Source: a virus. From it: a stretch of DNA of 29,218 bases. The notes beneath the pieces were generated by a model, which saw only the letters and a program-made list of their open reading frames with translations, had not been told where the DNA came from and ran no database searches. Made by a program: the position numbers and the translations under genes. Every line of letters begins with the position of its first letter. Positions within the stretch are counted from its first letter, which is position 1. This document shows, in pieces, positions 1,591-20,342 of the stretch. The DNA lies in IMG/VR virus record IMGVR_UViG_3300009008_000185, positions 1 to 29,218 of that record. One strand, written 5' to 3'.

Positions 1591-1899
1591 TCAGTCGGAC
1601 CGGGCGTCCGCCGCCGTCCAGCCGCCCCAGAACGCCACCAGCGCCACGAGCACGACTGCGACGAACGCGCCCCACTCGTTGCCCTCGCCGGCGTGTTCGG
1701 CGGCCCAGTGGCGGTCCCAGGAATCGGCCTTACGTCGGTAGGTCAGGCCCTCGGCGGCGGGCATGCACAGGCAGTCGTCGCCGACGCCGGTCTCTGACGC
1801 CCTGGACTCGCAGGAGAAGTCGGCCCACGTGGGAGCGTCGACACCGGCGTAGGCGGGCGAGGCGAGCAGGAGCACGAGCAGCAGGGCGACCGACCTCAC
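1591..1899 (-). CDS. Exported Cys-containing protein with C-terminal membrane segment (102 aa), lysis region
   Basis: Residues 1-18 form a Sec signal peptide (hydrophobic LLLVLLL, then AYA|G as a good signal peptidase I site). The exported middle part carries cysteines at 30, 43 and 45. A single hydrophobic segment at about 76-93 lies near the C terminus, followed by a short tail. The predicted topology is extracytoplasmic domain plus C-terminal anchor. The GTG start overlaps the upstream stop in a GTGA junction, so translation is probably coupled. The neighbouring 100-aa protein has the same plan, which suggests a pair working together, perhaps as spanin-like or other envelope-disrupting factors in lysis. 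I do not recognise a family; the function is inferred from architecture and place. Confidence 0.7.
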   Translation of the reverse strand: MRSVALLLVLLLASPAYAGVDAPTWADFSCESRASETGVGDDCLCMPAAEGLTYRRKADSWDRHWAAEHAGEGNEWGAFVAVVLVALVAFWGGWTAADARSD

Positions 1900-2198
1900 C
1901 GGGCCACCAGGACGCCTGACGCCATGCCGATCCCGAACACGCCGCCGATCAGGATCGCCCACCGCCACCAGGGCTCGCCCTCGACGAGCGGCTTGCACTC
2001 CGGGCAGGGCGTCTCGGCCTTCGCCGCACGCGCCCGGTAGTCGGCCACCATCTGTGTCGTCGCCCGGTCCTCGGCCACCGTGTAGCAGACGAGCCCGGCA
2101 GGGCAGTCGACGCCCGCGTCCGGTTCACCCGCCCATGCGCCACCGCTCCAGGTCACGCAGCCGACGATCACGCAGAGCGTCGCGGCCCATGCGGTCAA
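1896..2198 (-). CDS. Small exported protein with C-terminal membrane segment, possible spanin component (100 aa)
   Basis: The N terminus is hydrophobic (residues 3-16) and ends in AWA|G near residue 23, a good Sec cleavage site; an alternative reading of IVGC at 11-14 would be a weak lipobox. The exported part has cysteines at 32, 38, 65 and 68 (CPAGLVC, CPEC). A strong transmembrane segment spans about 80-98 at the very C terminus. If the protein is lipidated at Cys14, this is the architecture of a unimolecular spanin linking outer and inner membranes; if not, it is an anchored periplasmic protein. The start is uncertain: TTG at 2198 keeps the whole signal peptide but lacks a clear ribosome site. 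The gene overlaps the end of the Rz-like gene by 74 nt in another frame, as Rz1 genes overlap Rz. Confidence 0.65.
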   Translation of the reverse strand: MTAWAATLCVIVGCVTWSGGAWAGEPDAGVDCPAGLVCYTVAEDRATTQMVADYRARAAKAETPCPECKPLVEGEPWWRWAILIGGVFGIGMASGVLVAR

Positions 2199-2364
2199 CC
2201 GCGTCCGCGTGGTCGGCCTCGAGCGCGTCGCCCCGGGCCTTCTCGCCCTCGACGGCCCGCTCGAGCTGCTTGCCCCGCTGCCGCTTGCCGCCCGCCCAGA
2301 ACGCGCCGAGCACGAGGGCCACGACGGACAGGACGATCCCGAGAAGCGAGCCACCGTCACCCAC
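2125..2364 (-). CDS. Rz-like i-spanin candidate: N-terminal TM plus charged helix (79 aa)
   Basis: Residues 6-24 form one transmembrane segment. The rest (27-76) is a highly charged, helix-prone stretch without prolines, likely a coiled coil. This N-anchored coiled-coil design is that of the inner-membrane spanin Rz, which joins an outer-membrane partner to fuse the two membranes in the last step of Gram-negative lysis. The GTG start at 2364 overlaps the stop of the upstream 167-aa gene by 8 nt, and the 3' end overlaps the next gene by 74 nt. The family call rests on topology and location only; a small unrelated membrane protein is the alternative. Confidence 0.6.
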   Translation of the reverse strand: MGDGGSLLGIVLSVVALVLGAFWAGGKRQRGKQLERAVEGEKARGDALEADHADAVDRMGRDALRDRRLRDLERWRMGG

Positions 2365-3886: not shown

Positions 3887-4404
3887 GGCCCAGCCGGGTA
3901 GGCGTGCGGCCCGGTGCCGGGCTTCGGCGGCGGACCTTCGTCGTCGTCCGTGGGCAGCGGCGGCGGATCGATCTCTGCCAGCACCAGATACGTGCCGGGG
4001 TCCAACTGCGGCCCGAGCGGCCCCGAGTCGCCCGGCGCACGCACCCGGTAGGTGTGGCGCCCGGGCGCAGCTCCGACGAGCAGCACGACGCCGCCCGTCC
4101 CCGTGGCGTCCACGGCGGTCCGCCCGTCCCCGGCGACGTCGACCGTCATCCACCCGCTCCCAGGGGAGCGATGGCCAGCGTCAGGGATGGTCAGGACGGC
4201 GAAGGCGCCGTGCGTGCGGGCCGCCCGCTCGGTGGCGGTCAGTGGCTCCGGCTCCGGCTCGACCACGTGCCGGCGCGTGCAGTCCACGCAGTGCGGACGG
4301 CCGGCGTCGACCGGCTTCCCGCCCCTGCCTGGCGCCAACGCCGCAACCGTCAGACCGAGGGCGAGGCCCGCGACGCCGACCCCAGCAGTTCCCGCCCGCC
4401 TCAT
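3883..4404 (-). CDS. Exported protein with proline-rich C terminus (173 aa), function unknown
   Basis: The N terminus (basic start, hydrophobic stretch about 6-24) is a signal peptide or anchor. It is followed by a CVDC motif near 38-42 and a short EPEPEP linker. The middle (about 65-140) looks like a small beta-rich domain; the last 30 residues are acidic and proline-rich. No family was recognised. The ATG at 4404 overlaps the previous stop (ATGA), and the next gene, the endolysin, starts inside this stop (GTGA), so all three are coupled. It sits between tail-tip and lysis genes and could be a cell-surface or virion accessory protein. An overlapping longer frame upstream of 4404 is discounted because it lies over the next gene. 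Confidence 0.6.
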   Translation of the reverse strand: MRRAGTAGVGVAGLALGLTVAALAPGRGGKPVDAGRPHCVDCTRRHVVEPEPEPLTATERAARTHGAFAVLTIPDAGHRSPGSGWMTVDVAGDGRTAVDATGTGGVVLLVGAAPGRHTYRVRAPGDSGPLGPQLDPGTYLVLAEIDPPPLPTDDDEGPPPKPGTGPHAYPAGP

Positions 4405-5486
4405 CGGATTGCTACCGACCAGGAGGCGACGTTGCCGCTGGCCAGCGTGTCCACGCACGCGGCCGCCCCGAAGTCGGCGCCGTCCGGCATCGCGATATGG
4501 GCGGTGCTCGACGCGGGGGCACCCACCTGCCAGACCACGCTTCCAGCGCAGGCGGCCCCGCCCCAGGCGTCCTTGACGGCTATATCGCAGGCGCCCCCGG
4601 CGCCGCACACGACCGAGACGACGGTCAGCTCGCCGGCCGAGCCCGCGTTCAGCTGAGCGTCGGCCGCCGCTTGCTCGACCGAGTTGCCAGGAGCGCGAGC
4701 GAGTAGCGGGCCATCGTCGCCGTCGATCCGCACCTGGTCGTAGTTCGACCCGTCCCAGCCGTAGAGCATGGCGCCCACCGCCTGGACGCTGGACCCGGGG
4801 TTGTCGCCGATGGTGGTCGCTATCGTCTTGAAGCCGTACTCCGTCGCCACATCGACCCGCTTGCCGATGATCCGCACCCCGTCTACCGGCGTGGCGTCCC
4901 CGCTGGTGCCGCCGACCGTCAAGCCGTCCAGGTCCACCGTGAGCGAGCTCGCGCCGTCGTCGACGGAGACCAGCCCCGTGCTGTCGTTCGCCACCGTCAC
5001 GAGGACCGCCCCCGCCTCGGCCCCGCCTCCCACCGTGATTTTCCCGTCGAGCGAAGTCGTGTCGCCCGCGATGGTCGTCTGGAGCACCTCGATTGCGGCG
5101 AGGTCGACCACCGCCGGATCGTTGTCCGCCAGCGTGGTCGTCTGCGTGCCCGCGTCCCGGTTGCCGCCGTTGACGTTGGTGGCCGTGCCGAGCACCTCGA
5201 TCAGGTTGACGTCCACCGACGCCCCGGCAGGAGTGGCCACCGGGAACGGGTCCGTCGGGCTGGCGACGTTGAGGTTGCCGGCAGCGTCCAGGCCGCCCAC
5301 CGCCTGCACTGCGTCCGTCCCGGCAGTGAACGCCGAACCGTCGACCTGGGCCGACGAGTAGAGCAGTTGCGCCCCCGCTGCCCACGCCTGGCGAACAGCG
5401 TCCGGAGCGAAGGTCACCACGAGAGTCAGGGCGAAGGCGATGCCAGCGATGGCCAGCGCCGCCCCCTTCAGGATTCGTCTCGTCAT
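4401..5486 (-). CDS. Exported beta-rich repeat protein, possible receptor-binding or surface protein (361 aa)
   Basis: A signal peptide covers residues 1 to about 31 (MTRR, hydrophobic core, then QAWA|AG). The body is rich in Gly, Ala, Thr, Val and Asp, with repeated short turns typical of phage fibre or beta-helical proteins. Near the C terminus are four cysteines (VCGAGGAC, AAC, AAC), an oddity for a cytoplasmic virion protein but normal for an exported one. I chose ATG 5486 because GGGAG lies about 7 nt upstream; an ATG at 5513 has no such site. It follows the tail-tip genes, where receptor-binding proteins usually lie, yet the signal peptide suggests the product leaves the cytoplasm. Function unknown. 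Confidence 0.65.
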   Translation of the reverse strand: MTRRILKGAALAIAGIAFALTLVVTFAPDAVRQAWAAGAQLLYSSAQVDGSAFTAGTDAVQAVGGLDAAGNLNVASPTDPFPVATPAGASVDVNLIEVLGTATNVNGGNRDAGTQTTTLADNDPAVVDLAAIEVLQTTIAGDTTSLDGKITVGGGAEAGAVLVTVANDSTGLVSVDDGASSLTVDLDGLTVGGTSGDATPVDGVRIIGKRVDVATEYGFKTIATTIGDNPGSSVQAVGAMLYGWDGSNYDQVRIDGDDGPLLARAPGNSVEQAAADAQLNAGSAGELTVVSVVCGAGGACDIAVKDAWGGAACAGSVVWQVGAPASSTAHIAMPDGADFGAAACVDTLASGNVASWSVAIR

Positions 5487-17092: not shown

Positions 17093-18907
17093 CTACTGCG
17101 CGGCCGTGTACTGCCACTCGGCGCCGAGCACGGTCGTTGCCTCGGTGCTCGTGCCGTCGGAGGCGAAGGCAAACAGGATCGTCGCCCCAGCCGTCACCGC
17201 CTCGGTCGTGAAGGTGCAGGTGTAGAGCGTGCCACCCAACGCGCCGCCGTCGCACGTCGTTGTGGTCGTCGTGCCGTTCGTGCCGTTGCCGGTCGTCGGG
17301 GTCGCCGTTGCTACGTCCTCCGCCACGCCGGGCGTCTGGACGAGCGTCGTAACCGTGTACTCGTGATCGTTGGTGGCGGTGTCGAGCATGGTGACGTGGA
17401 ACGTCGAGTCTCCGACGTAGTCCTGCGGAACCGTGAGGGTCCAGCACGACGGGTCGATGTCGAGCTGCCCGCCAACGATGTCCCACTGGAGCACCATCGA
17501 TCCGGCAGTCGCCCCGCCCGATCCCAACTCATAGTCAGGATAGGTGTCAGCACCGCTTGCCCAGTCGATGGCGCCCCCGTCCGTACACTCCTGCGCACCG
17601 GACAGCGGCAACGTGACGGTGCGGGTGATGTCTGCGATCTCGGTCTCGTCGATCTCGCCGGCGTCGAAGGCGATGGTGCCCGTCGAGGCGATACCCGTGG
17701 CGCCCGAGATGGCGCCCAGCGCGCTGACGTCGATGTTCGCCGTGTCCAGGGCGAACGTGCCCAGGCCGGTGCCCACCGTGACGCTGGTAGCCGTCGCGGT
17801 GCCGATCCCGAAGTCGCCGGCTGCCGACGTGTCGACCGTCTGACCGGCCGTGATGGTCAAGCCGGCGTCGAAATCCGCCGTTGCCGTGGCCGTCAGGATG
17901 CCAGTGACCCCGAGAGCGCCACCGAACGAAGACCCGGCAGCGCCGGTGTCGAACGTCGCAGCACCACTGTTCGTCAGCGTGGTCGCCCCAGTGAGGGCGC
18001 CAGCGGTGAACCCCGCAGTGCCGTCCGTGATCGTCCCACCGACTACGGTACCCGTCACGTTGAGGCCGCCACCGAACGACGAGCCGCCGCCGGCGCTGTC
18101 GAGCGTCGCTGGGCCACTTGACCCGATGGTGGTCAGGCCCGCTGCTGCGCCAGCCGTGATCGTGGCTGTCCCGTCCGTGAGAGTCCCGCCGGTGACGGTT
18201 CCGTCGCTGGTGATTGCCCCGTCACATTCGATGGCGCCGGCAGCGGAGATGGAGCAGCCCGTGGCGCCGTAGCCACCACCAACCGCCAGAGTGTCGCTCG
18301 TGGTGGCGCCCGTGACGTCGACCCCTGCCGACGCGTCCACGTTGCCCGCCAGGGTGATTTGCCCAGACCCCAGCACACTCAGTGCTGGGTTGTCCGTCGC
18401 GTTGCCAAGGTTGATCTTCTTGGACCCGACCGAGTAGTCGAGCAGGATCAGATCCTCACCGCCGGCTGCCTGCACGATGTACGCGCTGGCCATGTCGGCG
18501 GTCGTGATCGTGATCGCCTGCGCTGCGTCCATGTCCAGCGTGTAGGCGCCCGTCGGGGCCAGGCCCCAGGTCGTGCCGGTGAAGGCGAACGCTCCCCCGA
18601 TACTCACGCCGCCGGTTGCGGCCAGGATGTCGGAGACCGTGACGGTCGTGTCCGTCGCGCTGTAGATCGTCGGAGACGCGCCGTCGAGGTCGAAGCACAG
18701 GTCGGTGTCGTCCGCCCCCGCCTGACCCTCGAAGCAGATGATGTCGTCCGTGAGGTTGTCGACGGTCTCGTTGAACGGCAACGTCAGGTCGCCGTTGATG
18801 ACCTTCGGCCGGGTCAGCCGGTCGACGTAGGTGGGTGCGGCCAGCGCTGCGCCCGCCACGAGCAGGAGGGCGAGCGTCACCGCCCCTCCGATCAGGAGTC
18901 GTCGCAT
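17093..18907 (-). CDS. Exported repeat protein with four cysteine pairs inside the head operon (604 aa)
   Basis: Residues 1-23 form a clear Sec signal peptide (MRR, hydrophobic core LLIGGAVTLALLLVAGAALA, then A|AP). The body, about residues 100-420, is a chain of Gly/Thr/Ala repeats: VTGGTLTDGTATITAG and VVGGTITDGTAGFTAG, and SSFGGGLNVTG and SSFGGALGVTG, are near copies. Such repeats suit a beta-helix or fibre. Eight cysteines fall in four local pairs (IICFEG/DLCFDL, GCSIS/IECDG, ECTDG/SCWTL, TCDGG/YTCTF), as in disulfide-bonded exported proteins. A different C-terminal domain (about 430-604) is Trp- and Thr-rich. AGGAG precedes the ATG. It lies between capsid and connector genes where head fibres can occur, but a signal peptide is not expected there. 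Function unknown; adhesin or surface decoration is possible. Confidence 0.75.
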   Translation of the reverse strand: MRRLLIGGAVTLALLLVAGAALAAPTYVDRLTRPKVINGDLTLPFNETVDNLTDDIICFEGQAGADDTDLCFDLDGASPTIYSATDTTVTVSDILAATGGVSIGGAFAFTGTTWGLAPTGAYTLDMDAAQAITITTADMASAYIVQAAGGEDLILLDYSVGSKKINLGNATDNPALSVLGSGQITLAGNVDASAGVDVTGATTSDTLAVGGGYGATGCSISAAGAIECDGAITSDGTVTGGTLTDGTATITAGAAAGLTTIGSSGPATLDSAGGGSSFGGGLNVTGTVVGGTITDGTAGFTAGALTGATTLTNSGAATFDTGAAGSSFGGALGVTGILTATATADFDAGLTITAGQTVDTSAAGDFGIGTATATSVTVGTGLGTFALDTANIDVSALGAISGATGIASTGTIAFDAGEIDETEIADITRTVTLPLSGAQECTDGGAIDWASGADTYPDYELGSGGATAGSMVLQWDIVGGQLDIDPSCWTLTVPQDYVGDSTFHVTMLDTATNDHEYTVTTLVQTPGVAEDVATATPTTGNGTNGTTTTTTCDGGALGGTLYTCTFTTEAVTAGATILFAFASDGTSTEATTVLGAEWQYTAAQ

Positions 18908-19382: not shown

Positions 19383-20342
19383 CTAGTTGGCGGTGTTGAT
19401 CAGGAGGGCGCCCTGGTCGGCATCGATGACGATCTCGTCCCGGTTCTCCTTCACCCGGACGACGTCGTCTTCGGTCTCCTCCCGCCGGAACTGGGTGACC
19501 ACCGTCGGGCCGCCGACCGTGCTCGCGATCTGCGCGAAGGCGGGCGCCTCGAGGTCGCCGTCCGGCACGTTCACCAGGGCGAAGTTGTCCGTCCAGATGA
19601 ACGCGTTCGACTCGGTGTCCCCCTCGACGGCGGTGTTCCGGATCGCTCGGCCGATGAACAGCTTCTCGATCTCGAACGCCTCGCGCAGACGCTGGGCGAG
19701 CTCGCTCAGCGTGATCTGCCCCTGGCGCGTCGCCGACGGCATCAGCGACGTGATGTCGCCGTTCTGGACCGCCACCCGGAAGGTGTCCCAGCCCATGATC
19801 CCCACCTTGGCGTCGGCCGCCGAGGCGAGCTTGATGCCGCGCTTCATGGTCCAGAGGTTGCCGAGCGGGTCGCCGCCCGGGTCGTCCCACTGCGCGGCCG
19901 CGCCGAGCGTGGTCTCCGTGGTCCAGACGCCGGTGACGAACATGGCCGCAGCCACCCGCACCTCACGCCGGATCTGCACCTCGCGCATCGCCCGCAGCGT
20001 CGCGAGACGCTCCAGGCTCATCGGCGCGTCGTGCTCGGACCGGAGGTCGTCATTGACCGGCACCTGCACGCCGTAGCGGCGCGTGGTGTAGGTCGTGGAC
20101 GTCAGGTTGAGCCCGACCTCCTCGTACGGCCCGCCAGCCGCACGGTCGACGGTCTGGTTGCTGAAGGACTTGAAATCCGACGTCGCGAGCCGGATCGTCC
20201 CGGTGGACTCCCCCGGCCGGTGCGTCGGCATGAACGCCAGATCGGCGATGTACGCGTCGTCCTTGTCGGCCTGGACCACCATCCACTGGGTGAGAATGGG
20301 GTTGACGGCCCGGACGCCCGCAGCAGTTGCTCCTCGAGGCAT
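19383..20342 (-). CDS. Major capsid protein (319 aa)
   Basis: It lies right after the protease/scaffold and cement genes, the conserved place of the major capsid protein, and has a suitable size. The sequence fits the HK97 fold: an extended N terminus, a long helical stretch (SLERLATLRAMREVQIRREVRVAAAMF, about 109-135), alternating strands, and a C-terminal beta region (EDDVVRVKENRDEIVIDAD). No long N-terminal delta domain is evident, in line with a separate scaffold. AAGGAG lies 7 nt before the ATG. It assembles the procapsid shell and may be trimmed by the gpI-like protease. Confidence 0.85.
   Translation of the reverse strand: MPRGATAAGVRAVNPILTQWMVVQADKDDAYIADLAFMPTHRPGESTGTIRLATSDFKSFSNQTVDRAAGGPYEEVGLNLTSTTYTTRRYGVQVPVNDDLRSEHDAPMSLERLATLRAMREVQIRREVRVAAAMFVTGVWTTETTLGAAAQWDDPGGDPLGNLWTMKRGIKLASAADAKVGIMGWDTFRVAVQNGDITSLMPSATRQGQITLSELAQRLREAFEIEKLFIGRAIRNTAVEGDTESNAFIWTDNFALVNVPDGDLEAPAFAQIASTVGGPTVVTQFRREETEDDVVRVKENRDEIVIDADQGALLINTAN

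Follow-up and report, generated by a model that had tools for sequence, protein, structure and literature searches.

In tailed phages the cytoplasm is the site of head assembly, and the structural proteins of these phages are taken to fold and assemble there. A gene in a virus record of 29,218 bases (the window, the whole stretch of DNA analysed here) raises the question why a protein encoded in a head operon should begin with a signal for export, and where such a protein would act. Because heads are built in the cytoplasm, an exported virion part would need an extra step. A preliminary description of the locus had offered two options, display of the protein on the infected cell or delivery of a virion part by an unusual route.

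Head operon position and predicted signal peptide

The coordinates and the length of the gene product, P0001, given in the preliminary description were correct, and the strand, unstated there, is minus (Table 1). The ATG at 18907 is preceded by a ribosome site with a good match (GAGGAGAG), and the stop is at 17093. Threonine, glycine and alanine make up 48% of the residues, and the protein is strongly acidic (64 D+E versus 8 K+R). Pfam and PHROG profile searches with P0001 gave no match; tblastn of P0001 and its orthologues P0002 and P0003 against phage records gave none either, with low-complexity masking as a possible cause of hidden matches. AlphaFold models of P0001 and P0003 had pLDDT values of 37 and 41, too low to be read. 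The sole PDB row for P0001 in a sequence search, a gasdermin (E = 0.4), was discarded as a chance match. Promoter and terminator scans yielded nothing above chance, an Rfam search gave no match, and genome scans detected neither a host nor a prophage.

In the order of transcription, terminase, portal (Portal_Mu), protease (Mu I-like), capsid and a small gene precede P0001, and a connector gene (named from its position), a morphogenesis-type gene, tail tube, tape measure and tail tip genes follow on the tail side, in line with the capsid and connector neighbours described earlier. Like head fibre genes, that of P0001 is located close to the capsid gene within the head operon.

Table 1. Coordinates of P0001, its parts, neighbouring and other genes in the window, and slot proteins of the Tedan-capsid group
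Feature	Location	Strand	Remarks
P0001, 604-aa predicted exported fibre-like protein	17093..18907	-	orthologues at same position in three IMG/VR contigs
Putative Sec signal peptide, residues 1-23, A-x-A cleavage motif	18839..18907	-	shared by P0002 and P0003 at low sequence identity
Conserved N-terminal module, residues 24-100, Cys58/Cys71	18608..18838	-	54 and 47% identity to relatives
Second module common to P0002, residues 119-190, TGAYTLDMDAAQ...	18338..18553	-	from alignment
GYGATGC...C block, Cys218/Cys228	18203..18280	-	10-residue spacing as in P0002 (368/378)
Two tandem 50-aa repeats, residues 240-339, shaft-like	17891..18190	-	30/50 identity
C-terminal region, residues 425-604, last two Cys pairs, variable tip	17096..17635	-	no Pfam/PHROG match
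Major capsid protein	19383..20342	-	phrog_1005, E = 7e-42
Small conserved gene between capsid gene and P0001	18995..19372	-	homologues in G003 and G001
Connector gene, 9-base gap downstream of P0001	16592..17083	-	52 and 45% identity to relatives' counterpart
P0004, second predicted exported protein, 361 aa, near lysis region	4404..5486	-	signal peptide in three lineages
Slot protein with signal peptide	L043:4507-5001		
Slot protein with signal peptide	L045:8881-9378		
Slot protein with signal peptide	L046:9158-9658		
Slot protein with signal peptide	L050:5099-5584		
Slot protein with signal peptide	L066:8196-8699		
Slot protein without signal peptide	L049:8891-9310		
Slot protein without signal peptide	L051:4517-4939		
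Slot protein without signal peptide	L052:3958-4374		
Slot protein without signal peptide	L058:8903-9319		
Slot protein without signal peptide	L060:9085-9534		

The leader of P0001 (MRRLLIGGAVTLALLLVAGAALA, with predicted cleavage before APTY) consists of an RR n-region, a 12-residue hydrophobic core with a mean Kyte-Doolittle value of 2.65 and an A-x-A site; positive n-region, hydrophobic core and small residues at positions -3 and -1 are the features of Sec signal peptidase I substrates. Among 20 scored genes of the window, leader hydrophobicity exceeded 2.1 only in P0001, the gene for P0004 and two lysis-region genes. This type of leader, recognised as a Sec signal from the outset, is common to the three distinct lineages (P0001, P0002 and P0003), though sequence and length differ. 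The leader ends in A-x-A in P0001, in P0002 and in members of the P0004 family, but in L-E-A, which is no strict A-x-A, in P0003. Beyond the leader P0001 has no second hydrophobic segment, it has no lipobox, and no cysteine lies at or beside the cleavage site; a membrane or lipid anchor, as expected of a superinfection-exclusion or surface-display protein, was not recognised. We infer that P0001 is actually exported and cleaved.

Modular architecture and cysteine pairs

A terminase search of IMG/VR identified three related contigs, two of them near-identical, and IMG/VR scans with the capsid gene, the tail tube, the exported module and the tail-tip protein returned those three contigs or none; the distinct lineages of the P0001 gene known are three only. 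Gene order is kept in all related contigs, and the products of most genes in the block are 36-69% identical. The slot always follows the order capsid, small gene, exported gene, connector, and is occupied by P0002 (643 aa), P0003 (204 aa) or a near-identical twin of P0003. In all orthologues the signal peptide directly precedes a conserved module of 76 aa that spans YxDxLxRPKxxNGxLTxP to TDDxIxxxGxxGxxxTDxxxDLDG. The internal Gly/Thr repeats noted earlier were recovered as a tandem repeat, the two units of which (residues 240-289 and 290-339) are 60% identical, compared with a maximum of 17/50 (34%) after shuffling.

The C-terminal region of P0001 could not be aligned to P0003 and had no convincing match in P0002. 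The C terminus of P0003 (residues 121-196) matches Pfam PF25692 (Phage_depo_C), the C-terminal beta sandwich of phage depolymerases, near the cut-off of 25 bits: the score was slightly below it when the protein was scanned (24.4 bits) and above it when the genome was scanned (25.9 bits). Profile searches did not detect this domain in P0001 or P0002; P0003 carries it without the catalytic part, and no catalytic domain was recognised in any orthologue. Phage fibres usually combine a conserved base with a swapped tip, and the pattern of fibres and adhesins, a conserved N-terminal module with exchangeable C-terminal tips, is present here, the ends of the orthologues not being homologous. The predicted export and the fibre architecture of P0001 are well supported at the sequence level.

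P0001 contains eight cysteines at positions 58/71, 218/228, 441/488 and 552/564. Their description as four close pairs has to be amended: three pairs are 10-13 residues apart, whereas the third (441/488) spans 47. When cysteines were placed at random, the maximum pair gap was this small in 3.7% and the sum of gaps in 1.7% of the trials; by itself, the spacing is only mildly unusual. The first two pairs recur in P0002 with identical spacing (13 and 10), one as C-x12-C in the N-terminal module, the other as GYGATGC-x9-C. At the two columns of the first pair, D and R are found in P0003 and in an internal second copy of the module in P0002. Joint replacement of the two cysteines by an oppositely charged pair is consistent with contact between the two residues, and hence with a disulfide in P0001 and P0002. 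P0003, lacking this first pair, has one pair of cysteines left and keeps the signal peptide. Of relatives without signal peptide and cysteines, named earlier as evidence against the proposal, P0003 is an example only in part, with respect to its cysteines; the signal peptide occurs in all lineages. The virions of phage Milano contain many disulfides (PMC10811340), so disulfides alone do not prove export. As in the reading proposed for P0001, parts of a tailed virion carry covalent disulfides in the Milano network; it differs in that contractile-tail sheath and baseplate parts are involved and the network runs between subunits (PMC10811340). The designation of P0001 as exported, fibre-like and disulfide-bonded gained support for each of its three parts, from the conserved signal, the depolymerase C-terminal domain and the Asp-Arg swap, respectively, and stays a prediction throughout.

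The P0004 family has a conserved AWA cleavage site and variable C-terminal regions with cysteines, and relatives of P0004 were found beside lysis genes (G003:C1:25579-26490 and G001:C1:1381-1995). The window phage and its relatives are thus predicted to export at least two modular protein families. A third putative exported protein, at G003:C1:26491-27492 (L022:13491-14492), shares a Cys-rich C-terminal domain with the C-terminal end of P0002 (E = 4e-10), suggesting that tips may be exchanged between exported fibres.

The slot between capsid and connector genes in other phages

Large genes between capsid and connector genes are also present in distant phages: the Synechococcus phages S-CBS1 (gp07) and S-CBS3 (gp06), S-LBS1 (A11), Arthrobacter phage LiSara (gp27) and Ruegeria phage Tedan. 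The products of S-CBS1 and S-CBS3 match the major tropism determinant, Mtd (PF21916, E = 5e-24 and 2e-20), that of S-LBS1 a tail fibre (phrog_9942) and that of LiSara a minor tail protein (phrog_6614); the Tedan slot holds a 545-aa gene without a database match. A signal peptide is absent from all five slot proteins, the N-terminal hydrophobicity of which reaches at most 1.12, compared with 2.65 for P0001; they have few or no cysteines and no sequence similarity to P0001. The position of the Mtd genes of S-CBS3 (L035:7835-8995) and S-CBS1 (L036:7610-8671) hints at receptor binding by a head-associated Mtd in these two phages.

The head fibres and host-adhesion decoration proteins phi29 gp8.5, SPP1 gp12 and T4 Hoc are understood as cytoplasmic. 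Like P0001 they are encoded in the head operon next to the capsid gene, and as elongated or modular surface proteins they have a reported role in adhesion (PMC7602432); the text of that review does not mention signal peptides. No sequence relation of P0001 to any of the three was found.

A screen of 248 reading frames in the slot region of related contigs flagged four, all of one family, referred to as the slot protein of the Tedan-capsid group. The mature protein comprises about 140 aa, and its ten distinct versions are divided equally into those with and those without a signal peptide (Table 1). The signal is placed exactly before the shared N terminus, and the phages are otherwise similar. 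In three of the five signal-less versions (L049, L052 and L058) a stop codon immediately precedes the start codon. The tree of the protein requires at least two changes of state with an unsure root, and the signal may have had a single origin within the group. The two signal-bearing versions that were scanned had no match in Pfam or PHROG. The protein occupies the same slot after the capsid gene as P0001 and has a Sec-type leader in half of its distinct sequences, but it is unrelated to P0001, short, without fibre repeats and without a database family.

The existence of this protein with and without the signal indicates that a slot protein can acquire export, and its signal-bearing versions that exported slot proteins are not unique to the window, the signal having been gained or lost. 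The search for exported genes at the same place in other phages, suggested in the preliminary description, was thus successful, whereas the expectation that only cytoplasmic virion parts are encoded there did not hold: the position is a recurrent fibre slot, with putative exported proteins in a second, unrelated group.

Predicted route to the virion and alternative readings

We give an even chance to the reading that P0001 is a modular, Sec-exported fibre of the head-operon slot that stays soluble in the envelope and docks on the virion at lysis. The beta-type fibre would be exported via the host Sec pathway, lose its signal peptide, and fold and form its disulfides outside the cytoplasm. Having neither a second membrane segment nor a lipobox, the mature protein would remain soluble in the envelope until the cell lyses, when the conserved N-terminal module would attach it to the virion, most likely to the head or neck; the variable C-terminal tip could then bind the next host or another surface. 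In short, P0001 is best read as a Sec-exported, oxidised fibre of the trimeric type, which would probably decorate the virion and join it at or after lysis. The signal peptide, the slot, the conserved N terminus with swapped tips, the repeats and the change from Cys pair to Asp-Arg are read directly from the sequences; disulfide formation, trimerisation, attachment to the virion and its timing we infer for P0001. Searches of the open-licence literature found no account of tailed virions with a Sec-exported fibre.

More generally, and put forward tentatively, some tailed phages may complete their virions outside the cytoplasm, with slot proteins that are routed through Sec, oxidised, held in the envelope and added at lysis, the signal being gained or lost in unrelated groups. 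If true, virion assembly can include an envelope-routed step, which would allow disulfide-stabilised adhesins on virions. Pairs of relatives that differ in the presence of the signal open the question to a direct test.

That P0001 is exported and stays on the infected cell, where it would mask receptors, block rival phages or make cells stick, appears unlikely. The signal peptide would serve this purpose as well, and the second exported family near the lysis region and the third exported protein with its P0002-like Cys-rich domain count in its favour. However, lipobox, second membrane segment and any other recognisable anchor are all absent, and in other phages the slot carries genes of the fibre type. 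The location of the P0001 gene, within the head block, points to late expression, whereas most exclusion proteins are small and are made early or during lysogeny. Of the two options considered at the beginning, the virion-part route is the likelier in view of the fibre slot, the conserved N terminus with swapped tips, the lack of a retention anchor and the Tedan-capsid group proteins with and without signal; neither option is proven.

It is rather improbable that the leader only resembles a signal peptide and that P0001 is a cytoplasmic fibre on which the leader either stays or is removed by the prohead protease of the phage. Signal-peptide calls on capsid proteins have been proposed, for Porphyromonas gingivalis phages, to reflect processing by a prohead protease (PMC10367356), and the window encodes a Mu I-like protease. 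On the other hand, all three lineages retain n-, h- and c-regions and an A-x-A-type end although the residues themselves differ, with the lack of a strict A-x-A in P0003 as a qualification for the c-region. In the same phages, two unrelated exported families have similar leaders, as does the Tedan-capsid slot protein, and the slot fibres of other phages have no such leader at all. Secretion of a soluble P0001 away from the virion before or at lysis, for instance as a decoy or as an agent that binds or cuts sugars, would suit its acidity, the missing anchor and the depolymerase-type domain of P0003, but is highly doubtful given that no orthologue has a recognised catalytic domain and that conservation of the N-terminal module points to a fixed partner for docking.

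A minor observation concerns positions 1896-2364 (minus strand) of the window, where overlapping frames with unconvincing start codons contain a lipobox-like VIVGC motif and a coiled-coil membrane protein, an arrangement reminiscent of overlapping spanin genes.
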